A DNA stretch of 64,000 bases from Pilaira anomala (lineage: Eukaryota; Mucoromycota; Mucoromycetes; Mucorales; Mucoraceae): positions 186,001-250,000 of the forward strand of contig JAIXMQ010000008.1 of assembly GCA_025716855.1 (NCBI GenBank). Direction: 5' to 3'. Positions within the stretch are counted from its first letter, which is position 1. Every line of letters starts with the position of its first letter. Shown here piece after piece: positions 33,564 to 41,404 of this stretch. A model generated the notes under the pieces. It saw nothing but the letters and a program-made list of their open reading frames with translations. It ran no database searches and was not told the DNA's origin. Position numbers and translations under genes: made by a program.

Positions 33564-34493
33564 ATGGGAAAGATCAGAATGTTGGTGAAGCTTGGTAACA
33601 CCGCCCAAAATTTGCAGGCACATAGGTCTATCATTACCAGCCTCGAAAGCATGATGTGGGAGAAGGATGTTGGTAAATTTGGTAGAAAATTAAGTGAGTT
33701 CTTTATCAATACTGCTTGCTACCCTGAATTTCTTAATTACTTCAAAATCAATTACCTTGATGGCGATAAGTATATTCAGTGGTGTGCAGCATTTCAACCT
33801 CAAATCTACAGCAACATGGAGACCAACAACTTTGTTGAAAGCTGGCATAACCAGTTGAAATCAACATATTTGGAGAGAAAGCGAAACATAAGAGCAGATC
33901 GTTTGCTATATATCATTGCCAACGATATCGGACCTGATTTCATTGCTAACACCAACAGAATTCAGTTAAATAATATTGGAAGAATGGGCCCCGAAGAACG
34001 TAGAAGAAGACGAAGAGAGTTGGATGCGGAATCTATCAGCGAGGAAGTGATTCCTTTGTTGATGGAGGAGGTTGAAGATGATCAAAGCAACAATGAGAGT
34101 ATCTTTTTGGTGAAATCTTTCACCACAAATTCAGTAGAATACAGAATTAGTGTCATTGAAGATGGTATGAAGAGCTGTACTTGCCCAGACTTTACCTGGA
34201 ACAGCATTGCATGCAAACATATGTATCTCTTGAGAAGATACAAAAGAGTAATTACTGTCTTTGTCGCTACCACTAGCCTACTTTCTCCCGAAGTATATAT
34301 TGCACCAGAAGCTGAACAACAACAACAAGAAACAGATGTACAAGCTCTCCCTAAAAACACTATTTTTAATGGGGGTAGATGCTGTTAGTAATCTTCAAGA
34401 AGTTTTAAATGTCTACTTACAAAGCCCACAACCTTTAACAGTTTCTCAAATCCAAAATATACAAAACATAAAAACCAACTTAGTATTATTTTA
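33564..34493 (+). pseudogene. MULE-type transposase fragment with SWIM zinc finger
   Basis: An open frame of 274 codons (33564-34388) matches the C-terminal part of Mutator-like transposases: NFVESWHNQLKSTYLERKRN, then NRIQLNNIGRMGPEERRRRR, then a SWIM finger CTCPDFTWNSIACKHMYLL (CxC...CxH). The catalytic DDE domain that should precede it is missing. Near 34370 the frame slips at a GGGGG run; the +1 frame continues VDAVSNLQEVLNVYLQS to a stop at 34492-34494, a coiled tail of the kind seen in this family. So this is a 5'-truncated, frameshifted copy. No terminal inverted repeats were identified by eye. Confidence 0.8.
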
Positions 34494-34989
34494 AATAACA
34501 ACATTCAACTTACAAACCAAAATCTCCAAACACAACGTAGATAGCTAAACGCGAAAAAAAAAATCTACAACATAAAAGCAATAAAAAATATATAACAAAG
34601 TTAAAATAAATCAGACTGCAAAAATAAACTAAACTTTATTAAAAGGTACAAAAAGTGTAAATAGAAGTTAAACAAGCGAAGCATGAATTGTGAAACATAG
34701 CCATGATCAATGAGCTATTACAATAAACATGTTGCTGAAAATAAGATAAAAGGTCCCCAAGTATTGTAACTGGTTTCTGTACGTAATAATTATAAAAAGG
34801 CTTGTTGATCATAGAGACAATGATGTGATTTATATATTAGTCAATTATATAATTATTGTAGTGTGAATAAACTTTATAGTATCGTAAAGTAGTGAAGGAT
34901 ATTAGAGCATGTGTAATTATATGAGAATATAATGTGCTCGTTCACAACAAGTATTACTGAGCTTTCAAGTGCTAATTGTGTTGAATAGG

Positions 34990-36300
34990 ATAATATACAA
35001 CCTGATAATATGAAACCTGAGAATGCGACAGCGGAAGAAGCCATGTCAGTAGAAGACTTAAATGAGGAAAATTCAACAACAAATATTATGACACAGCAAG
35101 CACAACCCGACAATTATATTCTTGAAAATGAATCCAACAATATCAACACATTTCAGACAGTTCAATTTAGAATCAAACAAAAAATCAAAAGAGCCAGGGT
35201 TCTACATCGATGGAGATTTACATCAAATACCTATTGTAAGCTCAATTACTTTCACAACAGCATAAAGATATACTTCTAAAAATAATTATTTAGGTCCTTG
35301 TCTCATCCGTTATTACTTAAAGAGAATGAGCATGACGAAAGTGTAGTAAAAAGTTTTGGACTTGAAAACTTAAATACTCTACACAAAAATTTACTACAAA
35401 AATACGTTGATAAAAATTCAGTAATGAAAACAACGACGTTCAACAACATTGTAAGTCAATGCTAAATGATACACTTGCGTGTACACTCTAGAATTGACAA
35501 GCTTCTGTTTTTTAGGGATTAAACAGTAATTCTGAAAGAAGATCATTTAAAGAATGAATAAATGATATTGCCAAATTCGCCAACAATAAAAATTACAAAA
35601 TGATCAATTGGTAACTGATCAAATAAAACTAATCTTTAGAATTTGTTTGATATACTCAATTATTACATCTAATAGCCTAAATAAACTATCAACTCAGGAA
35701 CGACTTGAAGACGATATAAGAGAAGCAGAGCTTACTGGTACTTTTCTCGATCCAATTCTAAATCCTATATTTTATGATCCCGAGAAGAACAGATTGTTTC
35801 GATGGTAATTGAAAATCCGATGCTTTTTATACATATCATTTATTGACGATTTATTTCCCAAATTAGGCTTAACACTGGTATTGACGATACTGAATCTCTA
35901 AGACCTGATGGTAATGAATTTGAATTAGAACAACGGAGAATAAAGTTTTCTACTGGATATGTTGAGGTGAAGCCTGATAAAAGTCGTTCTGTCACATTGA
36001 AGACACATGAGGACCTTCTGAGATTAGTAAATTTCTGTAAAGACACTGGATTCTATTTGCTTACAGAACTATATACTCTTTTAATGTCCCGAAATCTATA
36101 TCTGAATTACCCCAGTTCGTCATGCATTTTGATGAAATCAAAAAAATAATGGTTTGTTACGAAGAAAACTGTGTCTTGTCAAATGACATTCACAAGGAAT
36201 CGAGGAAGAGAATGTCTATTCAACAACAAAATACTTGTAATATTTTGAATATAAAGAAACCAAAAAAGTTACGTCCATCAATTGCTTTTAAATAGTTGTA
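34990..36300 (+). pseudogene. Decayed PD-(D/E)XK-like protein of a Mucoromycota repeat family
   Basis: Pieces of one protein appear in changing frames. 35010 onward reads an acidic start (KPENATAEEAMSVEDLNEEN); 35300-35452 gives HPLLLKENEHDESVVKSFG; 35517 onward gives a piece ending in a stop, then INDIAKFANNKNYK. From about 35605 there is DQLVTDQIKLIFRICLIYSI and, after a splice near 35805-35868, LRPDGNEFELEQ followed by TGYVEVKPDKSRS and THEDLLRLVNFCKDT. RPD followed by E-V-K fits a PD-(D/E)XK nuclease core. After FCKDT a stretch appears deleted, and near 36090 the frame shifts to NVPKSISELPQFVMHFDEIK. At least four lesions, so not functional. Family assignment is from memory of such Mucorales repeats. 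Confidence 0.55.
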
Positions 36301-36473
36301 ATAAAACGCTGCTATGCTTTTGATAATATATAATTATATAGCGTACACAACAATTAATTTTTGAACAAAGTGCTCATGATCCAGAAAAAGTAGATGTTAT
36401 CATGACAGGTTTTGCCTTCAAAAACTTGAATCTGAGCAAATATATAAAATCTGTACGTTTTTCTTGAGCGAGC

Positions 36474-37020
36474 CATGTTACTTTCCAATCCTGCTTCAGA
36501 AAGAGCGGGAATCAACGCAAGAACAGCTCAGGGATGGGTAAAGCGAATGGACAATGATCCAGAATGAGATATATACGGCAAGCTTATGAACAAAGTCAAT
36601 CGTGATGAATCTCAACTACATGAAGAGCATAAGTATTCTCTGATTCATCTTTTCGATGAGCAACCTCAAGCAACAAGAACGAATGCCGTTGATAGGCTTA
36701 CCGCAACATTCGAGGACTTCAGTTTGAAAGAGTCTCAGGTACGTAGGCACTTTCATAAAAGATCAATATAACTTGACATTCAAGCGGATCACTTGTCGTC
36801 CTGTGGTTAAAGACTCTGAAAAAAAAAACGCGCATCAAGAGGAAAGAGTGGGTCGAAAAATAATCTCAGACAGATATGGATTATCTAAGTAATTACGTCT
36901 TTTTGAATGAGGTTGCATTCGCTATCAAAATGGAGACCTTTGACGGGAAGATCTACAAAAGGCACTCCAGCCATGGATACTACACCTACGAAAATATTGA
37001 TCTTTTATATGTAATAGTCT
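36474..37020 (+). pseudogene. Tc1/mariner-like (IS630 superfamily) transposase relic
   Basis: From 36475 a frame reads MLLSNPASERAGINARTAQG, then WVKRMDNDPE, a stop (TGA at 36565), and NKVNRDESQLHEEHKYSLIH, LFDEQPQATRTNAVDRLTAT up to RRHFHKRS and a TAA. This is the double helix-turn-helix DNA-binding region of mariner-like transposases. A shifted frame continues KRKEWVEK, stop, SQTDMDYLSNYVFLNEVAFA, matching the block around the first catalytic Asp (usually FxDE), here Asn-Glu. The rest of the DDE domain is not found on this strand. The piece has two stops and one frameshift and has lost the catalytic residue. Confidence 0.7.
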
Positions 37021-37166
37021 ACACACCTAAAGAGAATTGATACAAATTTAGTAATCTCTTTAAGCCAACTGTTTTTCTCATAACTTACAGTGTAGAACCA
37101 TTAAGTGCATTGCGGCACACCACATTCGAAGTGGCGATATGAATTGTTTTTTTTAAAAAAAAGTTA

Positions 37167-38065
37167 TTATTCTGTTCTTGATTCTCTCGCAAATATGTTG
37201 GGCCTTCCAATGCCAGACCAGATTGAAAGACAAATATCCCACATATTTTTGGAAGCATTAGTATCTCTGTTCCATAATAAAGTGCTGCAGTTGGTACAAC
37301 GAAGAACTTTAAAATTGGATCCAAGAGTTGTGTTGCTTTTTGTCTTACATTTATTACATACCTAAAAAAATTGATCAGTTAGTCTAGATGTTACATGTAG
37401 TTATAAAATTACAGTTAAAACTTCTTACAATGGAAGTCCTGAATTCTTTTATATTTAATAGGCAGAGCTCGCCCAACCTTTCTCTTCTTTTTAAATTCTT
37501 ATATATAATTGATGTGACTCCGTGCTGGTGTCCTTTGAAACGAACGGCGTCCTTGTTAAACATCCCGTCACCAAAAATCACAATGGGCATCTTTGTTTTG
37601 TCACCGAGTTTGAACTTTTCTCTTCGGAGAAGTTTACTAAATAAATTAAAATCAAAATCAAAAAAATTAGATGTTTGTCATGATGTACTATTAAAAAGGT
37701 TATTACCTTTTGATTGTATTATCTATAGGAATTACAGCATTTTGCTGAGGCCGGTTCGGGTTACCCATTCTTCTGCGTCTATTGTTTCTTCGTCTTCTCT
37801 TATTATTAGCGGTTTTCTTCTTTCTTCTTTTCTTCTTATTATACTTTTTTCCGCGATTCAACAAAATGTTTACCGCCGCTTCTTTTGCTTTTTGTTTACC
37901 AAGATAATCTAACCATTTGCCTTGAGCCGTAGTGAACCCGTAAAAATTAAACAATTCGTCCATGTTTCGAAAAATATAATTCAAATAGGTCTTGCAGTTG
38001 GCTACTGATACTGTTTTTACGGAAGGGATGCCTGATTCAATTGATTTTATTCCAGATACATATCT
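37167..38065 (-). pseudogene. Fanzor (eukaryotic TnpB-like RNA-guided nuclease family), 3' half, 253 aa readable
   Basis: Three minus-strand exons: 38065-37707, 37636-37429, 37361-37167, with GT-AG introns of 70 and 67 nt; lengths 359, 208 and 195 keep one open frame to a TAA. Upstream, an in-frame TAA lies at 38068-38066, so the N-terminal half is missing. In order: IPSVKTVSVANCKTYL, DELFNFYGFTTAQGKWLDYL, a Lys/Arg-rich block (KKYNKKKRRKKK), PIVIFGDGMFNKDAVRFKGH, then LLNIKEFRTSIVCNKC, LRCTNC and LLWNRDTNASKNM. EFRTS, CxxC...CxxC and NRDxNAxxN are the hallmark C-terminal motifs of TnpB/Fanzor RuvC nucleases: an acidic residue before the zinc ribbon and the RuvC-III Asp (residue 222). The RuvC-I Asp (DPG) is not seen. 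The introns and the ribbon are undamaged, so decay is mild except for the lost 5' part. Confidence 0.85.
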
Positions 38066-38068
38066 TTA

Positions 38069-39231
38069 ATCGATATGTATACTTCCGTGTATTTTTTTCT
38101 TCTGGTAACCGAAGTCTAAGGTAGATATAGACGATCTTTTAATAATTATATTTATTTCGTATTTACTTATACTTTATTAAATAGAGGGCGGCCTTCTGCT
38201 ATCTTGAAAAAACTTATTTAAAGTAAGTACATACATCATATAAAAGTGGGTTACTCTTTTACTAATTATTATTTTTATTTAGTATACATATTTTCTCTAG
38301 ACTTATCATATATAACAACTCTCATGTCAATAAAGGTATGAGAATGTTTTTATATTTGTATCGTATCTAAATCACTTGTGTTATAGGTAAGCTATCCGTC
38401 ATTATTACCACCTTTGCAACCCACTTCTGTTTGTATAGAGCGTCTCCCTAATCGACAAATATATTTATAGTGGACGACAATGTTTTTTAAGAACCGACAA
38501 TTTTCACAGGTATGACTGTACCAAAAAATGTATCGAAGGTTCCGATTTGATCAGCGAATCATGTTTATTCAAACATGCTTCGTAAGCTTTTCGATTATCT
38601 GATTTTGATCAAAATACATAGGTAGTTATATTTTCAGGCCTATTTCAAAAAAAGAAAGAAAAATCTTAATAATGTAACAGAATTATTAAGAAAATATATT
38701 AGAGAAGAAAGAACATTTATACGAGTAATATATTAGTTAGAGAGCTATTTAATCTTTTATTTAGTAATTAGATTTTCTTAAAGGGTAGTACGTTGTGAGA
38801 CTTTAAGAACCGGAATATGAATAAAAGACAAATTATAGAAAAATATAAGGGCCTTGTATTTAAAAAAAAAAGATGGATATAATAATACCATTAACCTAGA
38901 TGGTTTTATGTACTTTATTGTTTATACAACAAGAAAAGAAAACACAGTTTCATCTTTATTATCGTTATTTACATATCGTTTTAAGCCAAGTGACAACTTA
39001 ACACAACAATGCAAAATTTGATTTTTAAATAAACAAAATGTTTGTAATACAATGAACCTCTCAACTAATTTGATTGGAAGCTGAATTATCTTGCTTTGTA
39101 ATTCAAAACAAACATGATTGGATAATTCATTATTTCAAAAGTCACACTAAAAAGTGTACTTTCTTTTTTTTTCCATATTAAAACACCCCTCCCTCCTAAA
39201 CTATTTAATAAGCTCTCTTTTTTTTTTTCAA
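38069..39231. other. Intergenic region between the Fanzor relic and thioredoxin reductase
   Basis: About 1.15 kb. I looked here on the minus strand for the missing N-terminal half of the Fanzor gene and found no DPG-type RuvC-I motif or long frame. No other gene is visible. Pyrimidine-rich DNA at 39160-39230 is the leader of thioredoxin reductase. Confidence 0.5.
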
Positions 39232-40491
39232 ATGCTTTCTTCTCGTTTATTTTCGCGTACTTCTTTTACTTTTCGTAGAAACTTTACTACTTCAATTTTA
39301 AATATGGCTCCTCAACATCGTCAAGTTGCCGTTATTGGCTCAGGTCCTGCTGGTAAATATATTACACTTCAACATCATATACATATATATATATATATAT
39401 ATATAACTAAAAAATATTATCTAAATAGGTCACACTGCTGCTATTTATCTCGCTCGTGCAAACTTAAACCCTATCATGTTTGAAGGTATGATGGCTAACG
39501 GATTCGCTCCCGGAGGTCAATTAACCACCACAACTGATGTTGAGAACTTCCCTGGTTTCCCCAAGGGTGTTATGGGTGGTGAATTAATGGATTTAATGCG
39601 TGCTCAATCCGAGAACTGTGGTACTGTCATTGAAACCGAAACCATCACCAAGCTCGATACTTCTTCTCGTCCTTTCAAGATCTGGCGTGAGGGTTCTGAG
39701 GATCAAGAGGAACCTACTGATACTGCTGATGCTGTTGTCATCGCTACCGGTGCTTCTGCTAGACGTATGTATTTACCTGGTGAAGATAAGTACTGGCAAA
39801 ACGGTATCTCTGCTTGTGCCGTTTGTGATGGTGCTGTCCCTATTTTCAGAAACAAGCCTTTGGTTGTTATTGGTGGTGGTGATTCTGCTGCTGAAGAAGC
39901 TATCTATCTCACAAAATGTAAGTATAATATTAAGAGTGATAGAAAGAAAGAGTGATAGAAGGAAAGAGTGATAAAGAGAAAGAGAAAAATGGATTTGTCA
40001 TTTAGATAAACTAATATTATTTATTGAATGATATAGATGGTTCCATGGTTCATGTTCTTGTTCGTCGTGATCAACTCCGTGCTTCCAAGGTTATGGCTAA
40101 GCGTCTTTTATCTCACCCCAAGGTCACTGTTCACTTCAACGTTTCACCTACTGAAGCATTCGGTGATGGTAACCTTTTGACCCATGTTGGTACAGTTAAC
40201 AACGTTACCAAGGAAGCTAGTAAGATTGAAGCTAATGGTTTATTCTATGCTATCGGTCACGATCCCGCAAATGCTCTTGTTAAGGGTCAAGTTGATCTTG
40301 ATGAAGATGGTTATATCAAGACCATTCCTGGTTCTTCCGAGACTAACGTTCCTGGTCTCTTTGCTGCTGGTGATGTTCAAGACAAGCGTTATCGTCAAGC
40401 TGTCACCTCTGCCGGATCCGGTTGTATGGCTGCCCTTGATGCTGAACGTTACTTGTCTGAACTCGAAGCTGAACAAGCCGAAAAGAAATGA
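39232..40491 (+). CDS. Thioredoxin reductase (NADPH), 354 aa, with mitochondrial-type leader
   Basis: Three exons: 39232-39352, 39429-39917, 40037-40491. The low-molecular-weight flavoenzyme passes electrons from NADPH to thioredoxin. FAD-binding [15 protein letters not shown] spans the first splice; NADPH-binding [13 protein letters not shown] and the redox pair CAVC (in [11 protein letters not shown]) are present, and the C-terminal FAD motif is [18 protein letters not shown]. From the first ATG the protein has an Arg/Ser/Thr/Phe-rich start ([20 protein letters not shown]) typical of a mitochondrial presequence; a second ATG at 39304 (MAPQHRQ) begins at the normal cytosolic N-terminus. Leaky use of both could give two compartments. 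Codon bias suggests high expression. Confidence 0.96.
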
Positions 40492-40840
40492 ATCCCTGGT
40501 AACGAAAAGCCTAGACTTTAGATAGAATATACATATATATATATATAACCCATCACTCTTTAAAAAAATTTTAATTCGGGGCTTTTCGTTATTATAATAA
40601 GAAAATCATTTATTTTTTTTTATAGTTACCCTTTTTTGTTCTAATCTTACATTTTTTTTTTAATTCATAAAATTATTTTTAACCCCACTTTTTTTTACGT
40701 TACTAATCTAAATTTTTTCGACTGATGCATATTCTTCATTGGCTTGCGGTATGCCATTTCATTTCTCATCCAATTATCTGTTGCTTTGTAATAATAATAA
40801 TAAAAAAAAACGTCAATTTTAACCTTTATCACATAAATCA
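40492..40840. other. Intergenic region
   Basis: A+T-rich 3' flank of thioredoxin reductase with an AT repeat at 40533-40546. No gene seen. Confidence 0.5.
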
Positions 40841-41404
40841 ATGATGAATGTACCAAAAGATATACTTCAAAATCTTTATAAATCTCAACTTATGAGGTGT
40901 AGTACGATGTGCAAAGAATGCTCTTCAGATATACTATGCCGACTTGTCATTTACTGAATACAATACAGATCGATTGATATCAGTACTTGAGCAAGAGCAC
41001 TATTTTCAACACTGCCATTGGGTAAATACATTAAGAAACTACTTTCAAAGCAACAGTGACGAAGAAAAAGGATAAAAGAACAACTTTTGAAGTTTCTCAC
41101 CTTGCCAAATCTCAAAAAATTGATAATAGATTCTAGTGATCGTGGAGAGTATGAACTAAATTCACAGTTAGTAAAGGTCAAATCTGATTTTTGGGAAGAA
41201 AAATGTCGGATGTTTCTTTCTGATTTGAATATTACACCTCTTAATAATCAACCTATAAATGCTGTTCACTCGTTATGTCAATTTTTGTCCCATCCAGACA
41301 AGATGTTCCCTTATAATGTAGGAAATCAAACTATTAATGTAAAATATGTATTTGGAAATAAAGTTACATATTATCCTTTAACTTTTTCACGCTTTTTAGC
41401 ATGA
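40841..41404 (+). pseudogene. Decayed F-box-like gene fragment
   Basis: A frame starting at about 40842 reads MMNVPKDILQNLYKSQLMRC, the look of an F-box N-terminus, then shifts near 40910 to CKNALQIYYADLSFTEYNTD and HYFQHCHWVNTLRNYFQ up to a stop near 41075. A third piece, 41087-41404, reads KFLTLPNLKKLIIDSSDRG, as in leucine-rich F-box proteins, and runs to a stop. At least two frame changes separate the pieces. The F-box assignment is by pattern only. Confidence 0.4.

Follow-up and report, generated by a model that had tools for sequence, protein, structure and literature searches.

Fanzor1 families of Mucor, Rhizopus, and Phycomyces were described by Bao and Jurka 2013 (PMC3627910). In the relevant passages of that report the genes are multi-exon, are carried by mucoralean DNA transposons, and occur as several families per genome, as is the case for the gene reported here. 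Fanzor1 genes in Tc/mariner elements are described there as well. However the mucoralean elements in these passages are MuDR or unclassified and no guide RNA was then known, whereas the elements reported here have an end in common with an element carrying a DDE_3 transposase. In Spizellomyces punctatus, the SpuFz1 guide RNA extends out of the element's 3′ end into host sequence, a layout similar to that of the present locus, and ORF-less ghost loci are found in the same genome (PMC10432273, in the part on this system). SpuFz1 differs in that its inverted repeats are 30 nt long, its scaffold is 75 nt, and its locus has a single ORF; the text of that paper contains no relevant passage on introns or splicing.

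Guide RNA sizes of 150 nt (GtFz1), 90 nt (SpuFz1), and 75 nt (PpFz1) are given in the pertinent section of PMC11423790, with a seven-pair stem-loop 1 (SL1) in all three. PpFz1 is from Parasitella parasitica, a mucoralean, and displays a four-pair SL2 that adjoins the guide (same section). Terminal repeats and target duplications are built into Fanzor1 guide-RNA scaffolds, and transposon end and guide scaffold constrain one and the same DNA stretch (PMC10711439, in the section on scaffolds). IStrons combine a group I intron with a TnpB element (PMC4227781, in part). They are similar to the locus described here in that an intron and a transposon guide RNA are found in one element, but theirs is a group I intron, and the one considered here is a putative GT-AG intron inside the guide-RNA gene. 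In IStrons, according to work by Zedaveinyte in 2024, the self-splicing group I intron reportedly competes with guide making.

The window is a 64,000-nt stretch of Pilaira anomala DNA (GCA_025716855.1, contig JAIXMQ010000008.1), and positions below refer to it. Since mucoralean Fanzor1 has been known since 2013, the gene in the window is itself ordinary. The locus as a whole is, somewhat more probably than otherwise, a dead Fanzor1 copy in a Tc1/mariner-type transposon, with an omega-RNA tail that has a spliceosomal intron between the scaffold and the element end.

The Fanzor1 relic gene

A first-pass annotation had proposed the spliced C-terminal half of a Fanzor gene on the minus strand. The three open frames it named are present (37703–38065, 37384–37677, and 37167–37361), and complement(38065..37707, 37636..37429, 37361..37167), joined over two GT-AG introns as it had suggested, gives one continuous frame of 253 codons and a stop codon (37169–37167). 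Exon piece 1 (37707..38065, minus) carries the end of the RuvC part and a basic linker, as placed by the frame join and by alignment to relatives. The proposed span is refined at both ends: the first three codons (RYV) derive from the 5′ part of the element, placed there by a deletion, and the feature does not stop at 37167 but reaches the element end at 37020. Coding intron 1 (37637..37706, minus, 70 nt, GTAATAAC...ATTTAG) is followed by exon piece 2 (37429..37636, minus) with IVIFGDG and KEFRTS. Coding intron 2 (37362..37428, minus, 67 nt, GTAAGAAG...TTTTTTAG) has a junction that is also read by the Helicostylum pulchrum gene model P0002, which spans it with EFRTSVVCNTC. Exon piece 3 (37167..37361, minus), placed by Pfam and the SpuFz1 alignment, contains the zinc ribbon, NRDTNASKN with the RuvC-III Asp, and the stop codon. 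All motifs listed by the annotation are found, and the zinc ribbon, with both CxxC pairs (VCNKC and LRCTNC), and the RuvC-III Asp are intact as it had stated.

The joined frame gives 29.0 bits with Pfam PF07282 (Cas12f1-like TNB domain; cut-off 26.3) and reaches the NCBIfam TnpB profile weakly (18.6 bits, below the cut-off of 425). The whole joined protein matches SpuFz1 in the PDB (E-value = 3.3e-5), and single stretches match weakly (best 12.4 bits). These results bear out the profile check that the annotation had called for, and its assignment to the C-terminal half of Fanzor. In the SpuFz1 alignment the Glu of KEFRTS is opposite chain residue 935 and the Asp of WNRD opposite residue 1000. 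Both give an offset of 394 to the catalytic residues E541 and D606 (PMC10432273, in the passage naming them), which supports the Glu and Asp assignment. IVIFGDG has no glutamate, and the RuvC-II glutamate is the alternative one (Ealt), the E of KEFRTS. Absence of Glu from the IVIFGDG position is expected in the DPG/Ealt lineage (PMC10711439, in the passage on that lineage).

The genome search that had been suggested shows 60 places in P. anomala with a match to the relic at E <= 0.01; each exon counts separately, and the query's own three are included. For seven of the nine relatives compared, pN/pS is 0.21–0.57; the two shortest relatives give 1.0 and 1.4. A chance open frame is ruled out by the Pfam score, the 60 genomic places, and pN/pS. 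Of the Fanzor1 features, the window copy keeps the zinc ribbon, the RuvC-III Asp, and Ealt, and lacks the RuvC-I DPG and the TDG of the WED domain, both regions being deleted. The gene is almost certainly a Fanzor1 relic. Judged by what it keeps and lacks, the window copy is a relic of a Fanzor1 member, not a working member.

Deletion, relatives, and the carrier element

The RuvC-I half had been reported as missing, and comparison with relatives shows that the region is deleted. The window has gaps of about 2.6 kb against L040 (contig C182) and about 2.9 kb against L041 (C164), with matches flanking both sides. The junction of this internal deletion lies at 38047..38074 (minus) in the alignments to L040 and L041; here the two matches overlap and the two sides resemble each other. 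A 5′ noncoding part of the element (38075..38449, minus) is common to L040 and L041 and partly to L042 and L054. Homology stops at 38449, where L040 and L054 continue, and the left terminal repeat of L054 is absent in the window. The N-terminal part, RuvC-I, and the left end are gone from the window copy; the right end is exact. The annotation had left it open whether the copy is dead or split. On this structure the protein is dead, through the internal deletion and the lost left end. A gene split into two working halves is rejected, as P0006 and P0004 match in 34001–41000 only from residues 717 and 175 on.

An intact A-type gene was not seen among the copies read (L033, L034, L035, L040, L041, L042, and L048), which are all damaged by stops, deletions, or lost exons. 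VDPG is kept in L034, L041, and C90, and TDG is found in C90, L036, L037, L038, L039, and L041. Better copies elsewhere in the genome had been predicted, and open recent copies are found, but in another subfamily, about 28% identical. These subfamily B elements on C90, C152, and C166 (L043, L044, and L045) are 4.46 kb long, 99.9% identical, and have unrelated flanks; by this identity and these flanks they have moved recently. C90 carries an open frame of 968 codons with five introns, an N-terminal CKRCGQTGHKDARSLLC knuckle (CCHC-like), RTDGYG, VDPG, and the zinc ribbon; one acceptor in this frame, AAAAAAG, is unusual. The third exon of C166 is open like that of C90, and that of C152 is broken by one extra base. 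In L033 (C172:58.0–58.9 kb) the public model P0001 reads the third exon in another frame, so that the database protein lacks the zinc ribbon.

Nine public proteins match the C90 product at E <= 1e-3 (Mucor flavus, Helicostylum pulchrum, Thamnidium elegans, and one further contig). Seven are 50–60% identical and two are higher over shorter parts. A comparison of A and B group profiles shows the two groups to be related, with a probability of 98.9 and E = 1.7e-17. Searches of the PDB with P0002, the 968-aa product, or the M. flavus profile found no Fanzor, and the best PDB match of the M. flavus profile is annotated 'Glr2806 protein' (E-value = 2.7e-4). P0011, 616 aa on a public contig of 2342 bases, is near-identical to M. 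flavus P0006, and its start corresponds to the start of Pilaira exon 4. Viral contigs show no exact match to the tail pattern; they give nine pattern matches to P0006, none of them a relative.

Copies end at the same base and then continue into unrelated flanks, which marks the element end. In the window this right end is GTGTGTA (37020..37026, minus), of which TA is probably target duplication, and the host flank that follows, GACTATTACATATAAAAGAT (37000..37019, minus), is in the guide position. TA is found at both element ends, possibly as part of the repeat; no empty site and no duplication longer than TA were seen. TACACACCTAAAGA is present at both ends of a presumed single element on C154 (L054 and L055), and TACACRCC in C90, C152, and C166, whose ends read TACACGCC...GGTGTGTA. 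Helitron ends have CTRR and an A/T target; neither is found in the ends of C90, C152, and C166, and a Helitron was rejected. The element L073 has the same 12-base end and encodes a 366-codon DDE_3 transposase (93.6 bits). A tblastn search with this transposase found no relative in L033–L072 or L074–L076. The host element is probably a Tc1/mariner-type DNA transposon, with a DDE transposase and the common ends together in one element only, L073.

A decayed fragment of a DDE_3-type transposase (36451..37019, plus; tblastn with the L073 transposase, E-value = 2.3e-19) adjoins the right end in the window. It lies outside the element; the alignment continues to 37062, and what is beyond 37019 is Fanzor element. 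Further along, 39304–40491 (plus) holds a gene with introns and a CAVCDG motif, which by that motif looks like a thioredoxin reductase.

The 3′ tail and its spacer

The first-pass annotation covered the gene only and missed the probable 3′ guide-RNA tail of the relic, which lies outside its coordinates at 37166..37020 (minus). The layout from stop codon to element end is common to copies of five divergent subfamilies (A–E). In the window it contains a putative omega-RNA stem-loop 1, CGCCAC-UUCGAAU-GUGGUG (37118..37136, minus), with six pairs by our own count. TACACT (37089..37094, minus), the putative 5′ strand of stem 2, stands at a GTAAGT donor (37088–37083, minus). The donor opens a putative 62-nt intron of the omega-RNA gene (37027..37088, minus), GTAAGT...TTACTAAATTT...CTTTAG, with TTACTAAATTT at 37054–37044 (minus) and the last base of the CTTTAG acceptor at 37027 (minus). 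GTGTGTA follows, and host DNA begins directly past it at 37019 (minus). An Rfam search of 36500–38600 gave no match at E <= 1.

Stem-loop 1 of subfamily B is UCAGU-AUUAAAA-ACUGA, extended by GUC/GAC over a bulge, and the hairpins of C and D are placed as in A and also have 7-nt loops. In alignment A2 (8 B-type tails, 7 distinct) SL1 pairing holds in 96.8% of cells with two double changes, both in L052, figures that were reached by 50 of 500 control shuffles. In alignment A5 (13 tails of A, C, D, and E) pairing is 92.3% with one double change, in E, and the measures were reached by 63 to 174 of 500 shuffles. The covariation of SL1 is supportive, not decisive. A short SL2 is proposed, with TACAC pairing to GTGTA; in most tails, however, RNAfold alone did not draw it in that form. 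With the spacer removed, the window tail would span 55 nt between the start of SL1 and the element end (37136–37089 plus 37026–37020), compared with 117 nt unspliced, and the spliced RNA would be about 70–75 nt with a guide of 15–20 nt. In size and layout this resembles the PpFz1 RNA, a likeness that goes by the description of that RNA (PMC11423790, in the section on PpFz1); sequence searches did not pair PpFz1 with the proteins studied here. The tail is very probably an omega-RNA gene. For L041, L046, L047, and L051 the tail is either lost or was not located. In L049 (subfamily E) the stop codon lies within the putative stem-loop 1 (approximately 2825–2790, minus), and coding sequence and scaffold overlap.

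GTAAGT followed by YAG at intron distance is found in all five subfamily tails tested, and was matched by 1.5–3.7% of shuffles in each; since the subfamilies share descent, these figures are not independent. The exact GTAAGT is present in 15 of 19 tails, where the search pattern itself asked for a donor-like string. With donor-blind scaffold patterns, GTAAGT follows in 10/10 B matches (<=2 mismatches) and 9/13 A/C/D matches (<=1 mismatch), many of the copies counted being close kin; at 2–3 mismatches, A/C/D matches are not above the reversed control. Patterns for the whole tail gave 8 and 5 matches, with 0 in reversed controls. L050 has no clear donor, and degraded donors are found in L035, L042, L052, L057, and L072. 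The acceptor is TTTAG in A, B, and C, TTTAG or TTAG in D, and TTTGCACAG in E. A branch point by the strict criterion is present in A, C, and D and absent in B and E. Spacers are 49–74 nt long, similar to the coding introns (57–71 nt in C90, 70 and 67 nt in the window). The 45 nt upstream of the donor are alike among A, C, D, and E (z 3.8–9.7), but B is not similar to the rest (z 0.3–2.2). A search for tails exactly without the intron found none at Fanzor places; allowing one mismatch it gave 6 matches, and the reversed control gave 13. Taken together, it is likely that the GT-AG spacer is spliced out.

The main rival to a spliced guide is an unspliced and longer omega RNA, with a scaffold of 117 nt from SL1 in the window, in which the spacer forms a variable loop or an extra stem closed by TACAC/GTGTA. 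The GtFz1 RNA of 150 nt agrees with such a length, and the region from SL1 to the guide is called variable (PMC11423790, in the section comparing the RNAs). An upstream ACTTA is available to pair with the donor in A, C, and D (ACTTA/TAAGT); the inner five pairs are mostly kept and there is one double change, in C. The D tails (L037, L038, and L077) have in common a hairpin, AACTGTCTAA...TTAGAACAGTT, that covers the putative branch point and acceptor and that also fits an unspliced RNA. However the outer ACTTA pair is broken in 8/13 rows, and the ACTTA partner is absent in B despite GTAAGT and imperfect in E. The spacer is neither conserved nor structured: spacer bodies show no similarity in any of 10 subfamily pairs (z −1.2 to 1.0), and in the seven tails tested the spacers lack excess structure (z −1.0 to 1.4). 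The two models are not distinguished by folding energy (z −2.8 to 0.8 for the spliced form and −1.7 to 1.0 for the unspliced, seven tails). An unspliced RNA appears unlikely on this evidence, while still the foremost rival. The D hairpin itself may be a feature of transposon-end DNA or an RNA stem.

The spacer could also be a true intron in the 3′-UTR of the Fanzor mRNA that sets the mRNA level, e.g. by nonsense-mediated decay, with no role in the guide. In the window the donor is 78 nt past the stop codon, a distance that suffices to target an mRNA for decay where an exon-junction rule operates. But B has only 46 nt from stop to donor, and in every subfamily the acceptor lies at the element end or <=23 nt from it, between the scaffold and the guide position, which leaves a pure 3′-UTR role quite improbable. 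Very improbable too is that the conserved letters are a terminal repeat serving the transposase only, with GTAAGT present by chance or common descent. The copies do share descent, and in A and B TTTAG lies within the terminal repeat and is also found in five Fanzor-less ends; as part of that repeat, TTTAG alone was rejected as intron evidence in A and B. The exact TTTAGGTGTGTA occurs at 29 places (reversed pattern, 10), of which 27 were examined, C193:715695 and C193:733328 being left out. GTAAGT is present in 14/17 Fanzor tails among these 27 but in 0/10 of the other places, five of which have the longer repeat AAAATCTTTAGGTGTGTA and five of which are apparently chance matches. Moreover donor and acceptor are kept in C, D, and E even though these subfamilies end in different sequences.

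A proposed guide RNA joined by splicing

The preferred reading is that of a spliced guide. Onto the Fanzor1 homology, the deletion, the element end, the hairpin, and the conserved GT-AG signals, a predicted course of transcription, splicing, RNA binding, and cutting may be placed. In working relatives, transcription would pass the stop codon and continue across the hairpin scaffold and the right element end into host DNA. Removal of the intron (37088–37027 here) would join TACAC(T) to GTGTGTA and the host sequence, and a short second hairpin would then be followed immediately by the guide. The Fanzor protein would bind the spliced RNA and cut the matching unoccupied site. Splicing would take the inner transposon end out of the guide RNA, and this inner end presumably serves the transposase in DNA. 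By analogy with known scaffolds, GTG-TA would play the part of terminal repeat and target duplication here.

That the spliceosome joins a scaffold exon to a short exon, starting 7–23 nt before the transposon end and running into the host flank as guide, is about evenly balanced, and so, with equal weight on either side, is the proposal that the spliced RNA would be the working guide RNA. The RNA tail of the window copy is intact in sequence and might supply guide RNA to a protein encoded elsewhere, in the manner of the Spizellomyces ghost loci, but all A-type genes read are damaged. A second site for the window guide sequence was not found at 0–2 mismatches, and at three mismatches there are 5 sites against 4 in the control.

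In the open-licence literature no earlier report was found of an intron between scaffold and guide in a Fanzor RNA. Joining by splicing would represent a novel route to such a guide. Should the tail intron prove spurious, what remains is an ordinary transposon relic. If the intron is real, the guide RNA would not be collinear with its gene, and the scaffold would be freed from the sequence demands of the transposase, a eukaryotic answer to the conflict between transposon end and scaffold. At such loci, a guide RNA predicted directly from the genome would then carry the wrong scaffold, and the outcome of tests in yeast could hinge on splicing.
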